Assembly (NCBI GenBank): GCA_025997215.1
Contig: BNUH01000137.1
Span: forward strand, 1 to 5,512
Source of the DNA: Clostridia bacterium
GTDB taxonomy: Bacteria; Bacillota_A; Clostridia; Christensenellales; Aristaeellaceae
DNA length: 5,512 nucleotides
Direction: 5' to 3'
Positions 2,171 through 5,512 of the stretch are shown in pieces. The notes under the pieces are model-generated. The model worked only from the letters and a program-made list of their open reading frames with translations. It had not been told where the DNA came from and did no database searches. The first letter of the stretch is position 1. The number at the start of each line of letters is the position of its first letter. Position numbers and translations under genes: made by a program.

Positions 2171-3109
2171 TTAACACATAGGATATACGTCGCACAGCGG
2201 CTTGCAAGGCAGCACCTGCGGCCTGCAGACATACGGATCATTAGCGGAACCACACGGCACCAGCTTGATCACGCACGCCACGACCTTGACCTGCAGCTTG
2301 GGGCAATGGTCGAATGATATGAACGAATCCCCCAAATCCTCCTCGCCGCACACATCCAGGTAATCGTAATCGGCATCCACGGCGGTCAAGTCCTTAACCT
2401 CTGTCTCCGAACGCGTCGGGTAGCACAGGCTCACCGTCGCCTTGGCATAGATCAACGGATGTTTCGGCAGGCATTTGACGCGCTTGGTCAGCGGAATCTT
2501 CACCTTCTCGGCAAACCAGCTCTTCAGGCAATGCGTGAACCCCGCGCAATCCCTGATGATTATCTCCACCGGAATCTTTATTCTCACATACAGATCATAC
2601 AGGTCGTCGGCGTTATCCTCTTCGAGGCATTCCTCGACGACTGATGCGCCCGTATTCCTCACGCATACGATCGTGTGCGGCGGACGTCCCGGCAGGTCGC
2701 CCTGATCCAGGCAATCCGGATCCAGCGGCAGACAATAAGCCGTCTTGCACTTCTCAACTTTGCCGCAGCCGATGGCGCGCGGCATTAGGTACGGCAGGTT
2801 TCCCGTGAATTCCTGGCACCCGGCGCAGCATCCGTTGCGGCAGCAGGGGCGGTTATTCGGATCGTCGTCGCACATGTCGCCGCAGCAATCCGGTTGGGGC
2901 GGCGCAATCACGTTCGGCGGGTAGCAGCAATTGGGCGTCATACCGCACGGCGGACAGGGCTGCGGAGGCAGCGCCGGGTAATGCGGTTTATACGGATAAG
3001 CCGGGCACGGCTGATATATAGGCATGTTTGGGTAAGCCGGACAATTCGGCCTCTGATGATACGCAGGGGCATGGCCCCGATCTAGAGGATATGAACAGTT
3101 ACAACTCAT
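2171..3109 (-). CDS. Uncharacterised cysteine-rich protein, paralog A (Pro/Tyr-rich N-terminus)
   Basis: I do not recognise a named family. The 312-residue product has 34 cysteines (about 11%). Residues 1-86 form a low-complexity Pro/Tyr/Cys tail with repeated CPAYP (23-27, 35-39) and CC pairs. The core shared with the two upstream paralogs follows in order: PCCRNGCCAGC (88-98), PRAIGCG (110-116), DLPGRPPHTIVCVRNTG (138-154), YDLYVRIKIPVEIIIRDCAG (171-190), CLKSWF (194-199) with IPLTKR (205-210), a strand-like YAKATVSLCYP (221-231), and LQVKVVACVIKLVP (272-285) then DPYVC (291-295). A short Cys tail (302, 306, 312) ends it. No signal peptide, TM segment or enzyme motif is visible. GAGGAGG at 3117-3123, 7 nt before the ATG, supports the start. 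It has a terminator downstream and a candidate sigma-K-type promoter upstream. Inference: a structural, disulfide- or metal-linked protein, possibly of the spore coat; a thiol-rich metal-binding role is the alternative. Confidence 0.88.
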   Translation of the reverse strand: MSCNCSYPLDRGHAPAYHQRPNCPAYPNMPIYQPCPAYPYKPHYPALPPQPCPPCGMTPNCCYPPNVIAPPQPDCCGDMCDDDPNNRPCCRNGCCAGCQEFTGNLPYLMPRAIGCGKVEKCKTAYCLPLDPDCLDQGDLPGRPPHTIVCVRNTGASVVEECLEEDNADDLYDLYVRIKIPVEIIIRDCAGFTHCLKSWFAEKVKIPLTKRVKCLPKHPLIYAKATVSLCYPTRSETEVKDLTAVDADYDYLDVCGEEDLGDSFISFDHCPKLQVKVVACVIKLVPCGSANDPYVCRPQVLPCKPLCDVYPMC

Positions 3110-3129
3110 GATATTTCCTCCTCGCTGTA

Positions 3130-3158
3130 TACCTTATGCATCATTACATATATAGGTG
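3130..3158 (-). promoter_or_regulatory. Candidate sigma-K-type promoter for the 2171-3109 gene
   Basis: The minus strand reads cACc (3155-3158), 16 bp, then CATAAGGTA (3130-3138). This fits the Bacillus late mother-cell sigma-K consensus, mACm with a 16-bp gap and CATANNNTA, at the right distance before the ribosome binding site. An overlapping sigma-A reading also exists: TTACAA (3166-3171), 17 bp, TGTAAT (3143-3148), with 3/6 and 5/6 matches. CATANNNTA alone is expected by chance about two or three times in a window this size on both strands, so the assignment rests on the spacing and position. Sigma-K would imply expression late in sporulation. Confidence 0.4.
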
Positions 3159-3190
3159 CGCGTGTTTGTAATTCTTTAGAATACGACAAA

Positions 3191-3214
3191 GCCGGCGCGT
3201 TCATCCGCGTCGGC
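3191..3214 (-). terminator. Probable weak terminator between paralogs A and B
   Basis: A 9-bp stem with one central A-C mismatch (3206-3214 with 3191-3199, 6-nt loop) is followed on the minus strand by UUUGUCGUAUUCUUU, a broken U-tract. It lies about 95 bp past the stop of the 3308-4150 gene. Partial termination would fit separate promoters for the two Cys-rich genes. Confidence 0.45.
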
Positions 3215-3307
3215 CTCACCGTTATGAGAAGACATGAAGAGACTAAGCACTCTAGGAATGTTTCACCAAAACCAAGGAAGCTGAATCAGCAAATCTACTA
3301 AGAATCG

Positions 3308-4150
3308 TTAATTGTACTTAGGCGGCTGGCAGGAGTACGGGTCAAACCCCAGCACGCCATACGGCACGAGCTTCACGACGCAGGCCTCGACCAGCACCTC
3401 CAGGCGCATGCCGTTCGCTCCCACCGGAATTCCCTGCCCCGTTGCCGGAACCGGAGTGCAGGTGCCCACGTGGGACGCGTTCGCGCTGACATCGGCGGGC
3501 ACGCTGTATGGCGAGCACAGCCTGACACGCACCTTCAGGAATAGGTAGTCGCTGGAGGCCCTTACGGGATCGGCACGCACGCATAGCGGGATGCGAATGT
3601 CCTCGTAGAAATATGACCTTAGGCAATACTGATAGCCGCAGCAGTCGCGCACGATCAATTCCAGCGGAATCTCGGCGTGCAGGACCAGGTCGTAACCGTC
3701 GACTGATATGTTGACGTCATCCGAGCACACGTTGCCCGTGCCCACGGGATGCGCCCTAGGCGTGATGCCCAGCGCGTGCACGCATGTAATGGTATGCGGC
3801 GGGCGGCCTGGCAGCGAGCATCCATCCAACTGACCCGCCAGTATGGGGTGGGATGCATCCTCGCTAAGGCGCAGATTCGGATAATTGACGTCGTCTCCGC
3901 ACTTGTGGGTGCGGCCGCAGCCGATGGCTTTGGGCATCAGCCACGGAATGTCGCCAGCTATGCACTGGCATTGAGAACAGTTACCCCCGCGGCAGCACGG
4001 CAGGGATGGGTGGTCAGCAGAATTGTCAGGTGCGCTGCCCTGTTGAACGCATTCTTCACAAGTCGGGGCATCGCAGCAATCACATCCAGGACCATAGGGC
4101 CAAGGCTGGGCGGGATATAAACCGCCGGCGCAAAAAGGATTGTTGTTCAT
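3308..4150 (-). CDS. Uncharacterised cysteine-rich protein, paralog B
   Basis: The 280-residue product has 24 cysteines. After a variable N-terminus with a CDCC/CEEC patch (23-34), it carries the shared core: LPCCRGGNCSQC (50-61), GDIPWLMPKAIGCG (66-79) with HKC (82-84), SLPGRPPHTITCV (112-124), YDLVLHAEIPLELIVRDCCG (153-172), YCLRSYF (175-181), IRIPLC (185-190), LKVRVRLCSP (205-214), and LEVLVEACVVKLVPYG (250-265) followed by DPYSC (270-274). It is the shortest paralog, with only about 35 residues between the RLC and VEAC blocks and a short Cys-poor tail. The start is supported by GAGGAGGG (4157-4164), 6 nt before the ATG. No convincing promoter is visible in the 254-bp gap upstream, which holds the left arm of the inverted repeat. 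Conserved protein motifs written with different codons indicate an old duplication under purifying selection. Function is unknown; a structural coat-like or thiol/metal-binding role is inference. Confidence 0.87.
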   Translation of the reverse strand: MNNNPFCAGGLYPAQPWPYGPGCDCCDAPTCEECVQQGSAPDNSADHPSLPCCRGGNCSQCQCIAGDIPWLMPKAIGCGRTHKCGDDVNYPNLRLSEDASHPILAGQLDGCSLPGRPPHTITCVHALGITPRAHPVGTGNVCSDDVNISVDGYDLVLHAEIPLELIVRDCCGYQYCLRSYFYEDIRIPLCVRADPVRASSDYLFLKVRVRLCSPYSVPADVSANASHVGTCTPVPATGQGIPVGANGMRLEVLVEACVVKLVPYGVLGFDPYSCQPPKYN

Positions 4151-4323
4151 GCAATTCCCTCCTCGATTGCATGATACGCGCGCGCCGGGGTCCGGTGCTT
4201 GCCATCGCCTGTCGCTTTTTTAAGCGCGCGAATCCGCACCGTTTTGACCCCGTCTGCGCGTCACAACATCCGTCTATATTCACTATATTCAGAGAATTGA
4301 TTATTCTCTAGCAATCATTCTTC

Positions 4324-4401
4324 GATAATGTTTGCGCGACTGGCCGCGAAATCCGCAGCCAGTTCGCGCAGTTTTAATTAGTTATTAATTCTTAAGATGT
4401 G
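4324..4401 (+). repeat. Left arm of a perfect inverted repeat flanking the 4405-5439 gene
   Basis: These 78 bases are the exact reverse complement of 5435-5512. The match stops at 4402 (g against t). Its inner edge lies 3 bp after the stop codon of the Cys-rich gene. It carries a long hairpin, an AT-rich run, and on the plus strand an ATG (4397-4399) that opens only a 12-codon frame here. No direct sign of a transposase or a known recombinase site is seen. Confidence 0.95.
4333..4375 (+). terminator. Hairpin with U-run in the left repeat arm (plus-strand reading)
   Basis: TGCGCG/CGCGCA (4333-4338, 4365-4370) and ACTGGC/GCCAGT (4339-4344, 4358-4363) stack with one bulged T. Three more pairs follow after a mismatch, around the loop 4349-4353. 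TTTT then AT-rich sequence comes next on the plus strand, so it could stop antisense transcription into the 3' end of the Cys-rich gene. On the minus strand the same hairpin is slightly stronger (a U-G pair replaces the mismatch) but lacks a downstream U-run. Confidence 0.4.
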
Positions 4402-4404
4402 GAA

Positions 4405-5439
4405 TTATGGGTTATTGTTGGAAGCTTCCTTGTAGCAGACATACGGGCTCTGGCCGTCGCCGCCGGATCCGCCGGCTATGAGGCGCACGATGCAGGCTTC
4501 GACGAGGATATCCAGCTTCGGGTTGCCGTTCGCGCAGCGGTCGGCATAATTCGGAACCCGGCCGTTCTCACGCTCAACACACGGATATGTGCCGAAGGTG
4601 TACTGATAGGTGCAGCCGTTCTCTTCTTCCTCTTCGTCGAACAGGCAGCGAACCAGGTTCTCAGCCTGCTCAGCCTTCCAGTGGTTATTGGCGATAGCAC
4701 CCATGCAGCGCCAACCGAATGTCGGGCCGTTGCAGAGATAGGGGTCAGCTGGGCAGTCAGTGCTGGCTGGCGGCATAGTGCCCATGTTGGCACCGGCATC
4801 GTCGACCATCGGCACGGCCTCGGCATGGTTCGGGAAGCACAGACGAACACGGACCTTGCTGTAGATGAAGGATGCACCCAAGTGCTTGATGCGAGCGGTC
4901 AGCGGGATATGAACCAGCTCGGTGATGAAGCTCTTCAGGCAATACAGGTAGCCAGAGCAATCGCGGACGATGACTTCCAGCGGGATCTTGAAGCGGACCC
5001 ATAGCCCATAACTGTCGCAGTCGGGATTGAGCAGGTTAAGGTCGTTGAATTTTCTACCTGTGGAGTCTTCCAAGCACTCCTCTTGCTGAACAATGCTGGA
5101 TCCGGTCGCGCGGACGCACACGATGGTGTGAGGCGGACGGCCGGGCAGATCGGCGTAGTTACCGGTTTCGCTTTCATCGAGCTGTTCTGCGCACAGCGGC
5201 AGGGTCTTGATGTATTTGCAAACATGCCGGCGGCCGCATCCTATGGCCTGGGGATACAGCGGCGGGGCATCGCCAGCGACGCTCTTGCAGGCGCAGCAGG
5301 TGCCGTTATAGCAGCAGGGTTCGCCGTCATACTCTTCACCGTTGGGGGTGTCGAAATCTGCGGAATCCTCGCACTCATCGCAGCAAGAGCAGCGGCCGCG
5401 CGGCCAAGTAGCTTCGCCGCAGCAAGGATCCTGACACAT
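4405..5439 (-). CDS. Uncharacterised cysteine-rich protein, paralog C, bracketed by inverted repeats
   Basis: The 344-residue product has 30 cysteines and the full shared core: EPCCYNGTCCAC (40-51), GDAPPLYPQAIGCGRRHVC (56-74), DLPGRPPHTIVCVRATG (97-113), ECLED (121-125), LWVRFKIPLEVIVRDCSG (146-163), YCLKSF (166-171), VHIPLTARIK (176-185), YSKVRVRLCFP (193-203), and PKLDILVEACIVRL (307-320) then SPYVC (331-335). It differs by an insertion of about 100 residues (204-306) between the RLC and VEAC blocks. This holds seven cysteines and an acidic run (DEEEEEN, 268-274). The ATG and the next two bases lie inside the right repeat arm. No Shine-Dalgarno motif precedes it, unlike its two paralogs, and a stop codon lies six codons upstream in frame. 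The body of the gene is clearly genuine, but the true N-terminus may differ if the right arm is not its native leader. Function is unknown. Confidence 0.85.
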   Translation of the reverse strand: MCQDPCCGEATWPRGRCSCCDECEDSADFDTPNGEEYDGEPCCYNGTCCACKSVAGDAPPLYPQAIGCGRRHVCKYIKTLPLCAEQLDESETGNYADLPGRPPHTIVCVRATGSSIVQQEECLEDSTGRKFNDLNLLNPDCDSYGLWVRFKIPLEVIVRDCSGYLYCLKSFITELVHIPLTARIKHLGASFIYSKVRVRLCFPNHAEAVPMVDDAGANMGTMPPASTDCPADPYLCNGPTFGWRCMGAIANNHWKAEQAENLVRCLFDEEEEENGCTYQYTFGTYPCVERENGRVPNYADRCANGNPKLDILVEACIVRLIAGGSGGDGQSPYVCYKEASNNNP

Positions 5440-5512
5440 CTTAAGAATTAATAACTAATTAAAACTGCGCGAACTGGCTGCGGATTTCGCGGCCAGTCGC
5501 GCAAACATTATC
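5435..5512 (-). repeat. Right arm of the perfect inverted repeat, open at the window edge
   Basis: This is the exact reverse complement of 4324-4401, and it is still matching at the last base of the window, so the true repeat may be longer. It supplies the whole visible leader, the ATG (5437-5439) and two bases of codon 2 of the Cys-rich gene. The inner boundary is at 5434/5435. Confidence 0.95.
5461..5503 (-). terminator. Terminator-like hairpin immediately upstream of the 4405-5439 start codon
   Basis: This is the mirror copy of the left-arm hairpin. Read on the minus strand it folds as two 6-bp stems plus three pairs and is followed by UUUU and AU-rich sequence, ending 21 nt before the ATG. 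A terminator in this position would block or attenuate transcription of the gene. It could be an attenuator, a relic carried by the repeat, or a sign that this junction is not native. Confidence 0.35.

Follow-up and report, generated by a model that had tools for sequence, protein, structure and literature searches.

An exact 78-nt inverted repeat around a Cys-rich gene fragment at a contig end is most likely an artefact

In site-specific invertible cassettes, a segment lies between inverted repeats. Assemblers that work with k-mers end a contig tens of bases after its own sequence begins to repeat. Inverted repeats are also known as products of DNA handling. According to the figures given for amplification chimeras (Lasken and Stockwell 2007, PMC1855051), inverted forms made up 406 of 475 chimeras, the segments of 337 of the inverted ones were less than 10 kb apart, and shared bases were present in 93.5% of these 337. 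In another set of figures (PMC4595205), the chimera distances range from 0 to more than 5,000 nt with a peak at 250–300 nt, and the overlaps peak at 6 nt. Nanopore ligation libraries are described as yielding inverted-repeat chimeric reads (PMC13141652), and a legend in the CheckV report (PMC8116208) gives 55, 77 and 99 as k-mer-like lengths of direct repeats.

The locus examined here lies in a window that is a whole contig, since the protein database places the window's own proteins on a contig of 5512 bases. A perfect inverted repeat of at least 78 bp around a single Cys-rich gene had been claimed in the original prediction, and the repeat was confirmed: the left arm (4324–4401, plus strand) and the right arm (5435–5512, minus strand) are exact reverse complements over 78 nt in the letters of the window and are separated by 1033 nt. 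The inverted pair that ranks next in the window's listing has 25 nt at 72% identity; hence, the repeat is far beyond chance. The inner edges had also been placed correctly: the left one is located 3 nt beyond the stop codon of the open reading frame (ORF) at 4405–5439 (minus strand), and the right one is located two bases into codon 2 of this ORF. Since the window is the whole contig, the right arm ends at the contig end.

The features of this locus can be compared with those of the described artefacts. It is similar to the chimeras of multiple displacement amplification, as they are portrayed in PMC1855051, in the inverted join, the nearby segments, the loss of the intervening stretch and, putatively, a few shared bases; it differs from them in that it is known from an assembled contig alone and in that the shared bases had to be deduced. 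A fold-back inverted repeat as a library artefact is also the form described for the ligation-library chimeras (PMC13141652), although that description concerns nanopore reads and the platform used for the window may differ. Finally, as for the k-mer terminal repeats in the CheckV legend (PMC8116208), the contig appears to stop about one k-mer into its own sequence, but those repeats are direct and of odd length (55, 77 and 99), whereas the repeat in the window is inverted and 78 nt long. The earlier remark that its length is close to assembler k-mer sizes was fair in itself, although 78 is not among the lengths in that legend.

The window carries three Cys-rich paralogues on the minus strand, followed by two further genes on the same strand: cys3 (4405–5439), cys2 (3308–4150), cys1 (2171–3109), xpaC (1348–1989), which matches Halogen_Hydrol, and telA (83–1213), a TelA gene. 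The short names cys1, cys2, cys3 and xpaC are labels given in this analysis. cys2 and cys1 are intact paralogues, which served as comparison genes, while cys3 is a gene fragment of 344 aa as an ORF, whose ATG is made by the junction. At E 0.001, none of the models in Pfam or NCBIfam was matched by the Cys-rich proteins of the window, and the structure model of the Cys-rich protein was too weak to hint at its function. In one scan of genome contigs, five distinct related loci (L001–L005) were found, all of them titled as Oscillospiraceae MAGs; isolate names of such type may point to a termite-gut origin of these MAGs. A cys3 protein was matched in 6 of 200 genomes of the family of genome G002, one of the matches being weak (G032, E 8.5e-9).

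Two comparisons bear on the start of cys3. One is with the five close full-length database relatives (P0002–P0006), which are 56–60% identical to the window gene: all five begin with MSQ and have a conserved block that ends in LACGWKWTC, the Cys being at residue 35 or 36. Another is with the cys3 copies of L001–L003: all seven have a Met 34–35 residues ahead of the same Cys, and the residues before this Cys are WKWT in six copies and WKWS in one. The extra 34–35 residues of the relatives end in GWKW(T/S)-C(Q/M)DPC. These two sets overlap, at least three genes being in both. In the window, the frame MCQDPCC begins exactly at the conserved Cys, and the block is replaced there by a reversed copy of the spacer located downstream of the same gene, cys3. 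Followed back from the ATG into the right arm, the frame reaches a stop and bears no trace of the N-terminal block. From the comparison with the relatives, cys3 in the window is judged to be an incomplete gene with 34–35 N-terminal residues missing, and the ATG is apparently not its start. The gene's own upstream sequence was lost at the junction (5434–5435). The claim that the arms enclose almost exactly one ORF is correct for the mechanical ORF but misleading for the gene, given the residues that are missing relative to its relatives.

Four database entries were left out of the count of five. P0001 is the window's own cys3 as called in the database (222 aa), with an internal TTG start instead of the junction ATG. 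The other three, P0007, P0008 and P0009, are close relatives listed without the block (308, 281 and 262 aa), and their contigs are 1660, 6599 and 1097 bases long, respectively; they could count against the truncation reading if any of them is naturally short. MCQDPCC was also considered as a natural start. More distant relatives, namely P0010–P0015 and cys2, indeed begin close to where the window's ATG lies. This start was rejected on two grounds: the gene groups inside the GWKWxC clade, and it is without a ribosome-binding site. In a tree of 14 rows, the window gene and the five GWKWxC proteins form a single set (support 96/96), and within this set the window gene nests such that it adjoins P0002, P0005 and P0006 (87/92, not starred). 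As a separate observation, the stored database calls P0018 (3308–4150) and P0001 (4405–5439) both use internal starts (209 and 222 aa, respectively); longer frames exist for both, and the longer start at 3308–4150 has a good ribosome-binding site.

The 20 bases ahead of the junction ATG contain no GG, while GAGGAGG precedes the starts of both neighbouring paralogues, cys2 and cys1. Among the seven cys3 copies of the relatives, a ribosome-binding site was found at the natural start of four by a pattern script, and the leader of a fifth shows GAAAAGGGG; these five copies, together with cys2 and cys1, are thus the main reference for the lack of a site in the window. On this basis, the junction ATG has no ribosome-binding site. 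This bears on the idea that a recombinase flips 4402–5434 between the arms. The exact inverted arms around an ORF are as expected for such a cassette, and a flip does keep the ORF in both orientations, as had been pointed out; the frame, however, is kept only as the same headless gene without a ribosome-binding site, whichever arm leads it. Neither state would thus make the full protein, and neither orientation gives a sensible product or switch state. The locus departs from site-specific invertible cassettes in two ways: there is no complete gene in either orientation, and no recombinase was found among the five window proteins scanned. No like arrangement was seen in L001–L003 either. Given that a flip restores the same headless gene, a cassette that functions in two orientations is very improbable.

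The left arm is ordinary sequence of the spacer between cys3 and cys2. This spacer is 254 nt in the window and 188 (L003), 216 (L002) and 231 nt (L001) in the relatives, as cut. The arm contains a strong hairpin at about 4333–4368, for which the fold z was − 8.1 on the gene's strand (minus) and − 4.3 on the plus strand. The spacers that the relatives have at this place also fold strongly, as seen without a shuffle control. The hairpin is possibly a terminator; the terminator scan did not report it. The original prediction had called for a search for further copies of the arm and for a nearby invertase or transposase. The arm showed no sequence similarity to L001–L003 (best E 2.1) and only chance-size matches to five related genomes (best E 0.013 over 24 of the 78 bases), and there was no match in plasmids and phages, or in viral contigs for an exact 37-base piece of the arm. 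As far as these comparisons extend, the arm seems to match no known repeat. Neither a recombinase nor a transposase was found among the five window proteins scanned.

The absence of identical arms from the five related genomes, viral contigs, plasmids and phages argues against the cassette, and also against the suggestion that the gene is carried by a small non-autonomous mobile unit with the arms as its termini. Inverted ends around a gene are what such a unit would have. Nevertheless, the gene order cys3, cys2, cys1, xpaC, telA is common to the window and L001–L003, which means that cys3 did not arrive as a lone passenger, and the right arm cuts the gene. A mobile unit is accordingly about as improbable as the cassette, and this suggestion gained no support.

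The structure of the array is relevant to a further explanation, namely, a true inverted duplication in the cell. The Cys-rich proteins form tandem arrays beside xpaC and telA (2171–5439 in the window; L001–L005). L001 has three cys3 copies, and L002 and L003 have two each; all three loci also carry two cys2-like genes, cys1, xpaC and telA. It was also found that cys1 shares the strand of xpaC and telA in the window, whereas L001, L002 and L003 carry it on the strand opposite to these two genes. The leader ahead of its ATG is nearly identical between the window and these loci despite the strand difference, and the best inverted match between the flanks of cys1 in the window is 9 nt. In the duplication, the region that follows cys3 (the spacer, perhaps with cys2 and beyond) would have been copied in reverse into a cys3 copy at about codon 35, breaking that copy, and the assembler would have stopped because the reversed copy is identical. 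The sequence evidence for this event is the same as that for an artefact. In addition, with two or three cys3 copies in the relatives' arrays, the loss of one might be borne, and the difference in cys1 orientation between lineages indicates that the array does rearrange over time. On the other side, the arm is exact and reaches the contig end; the inverted pairs of at least 22 nt listed for L001, L002 and L003 (9, 11 and 12, respectively) include no exact one, the highest being 94% over 32 nt; and a second near-identical gene copy was not found in the protein database. We therefore regard a duplication in the cell as unlikely, though less so than the cassette or the mobile unit.

The right arm is most likely an artefact, since it occupies the extreme end of a short contig and truncates a conserved gene start. 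Specifically, it is very probably a fold-back (inverted) chimera from DNA amplification, library preparation or assembly; a chimeric or assembly junction was among the options in the original prediction, and it is the one favoured by the contig-end position of the arm and the lost conserved N-terminus. An inverted join over about 1 kb, about 2 shared bases and the contig end together fit such a chimera. The two segments are inverted relative to each other and less than 10 kb apart, and the sequence at the junction is not the natural one of this locus, as judged from the relatives, in that the block of the clade is replaced at its Cys codon. About 2 nt (TG) are common to the arm and the codons at the junction in seven relatives' genes; the overlap would hold for the window insofar as its own lost sequence agreed with these codons. 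The distance of about 1 kb and the overlap of about 2 nt appear to be inside the published ranges of chimeras and off their peaks.

The chimera may have been formed as follows. A strand being copied through cys3 toward the gene start would have come loose and annealed by about 2 bases to the opposite strand just past the cys3 stop codon. The annealed end would then have been extended back through the cys3–cys2 spacer. Reads of this chimeric molecule would have taken the contig across the false junction, and the assembly would have halted 78 bases in, where the sequence repeats the contig's own content. Within this model, the arms, the contig end, the loss of the N-terminus and of a ribosome-binding site, and the ordinary left arm are observed, while how the strand was copied and by which enzyme, what reads supported the contig and why the arm has 78 nt are inferred. 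Two coincidences count against the chimera. The left inner edge is 3 nt from the stop codon, and 1.6% of the window positions are as close as 4 nt to a gene edge; an ATG is present at the junction, as in 1.6% of 10,712 placements. Both figures are simple counts judged after the fact. The off-peak distance and overlap, the arm length of 78 nt outside the CheckV legend, and the starts of more distant paralogues near the window's ATG also count against it. For random arms, an in-frame ATG without a stop is expected in 24%, and an ATG, GTG or TTG in 47.5%.

These results indicate that a fold-back chimera can mimic an invertible gene cassette when it falls at the end of a contig, even with an intact-looking open frame, and that a comparison of the N-terminus and the ribosome-binding site with those of relatives exposes such a chimera without reads. 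A different meaning would follow if the junction were both real and recurrent: the lineage would exchange or invert members of its array, and cys3 would be kept in store without its head, its start having to be supplied from elsewhere. We consider this highly improbable. If it were true, this process would also have left its mark in the difference in cys1 orientation. More generally, a real junction would represent a rearrangement among the arrayed genes of a Cys-rich family for which neither Pfam nor NCBIfam has a model.
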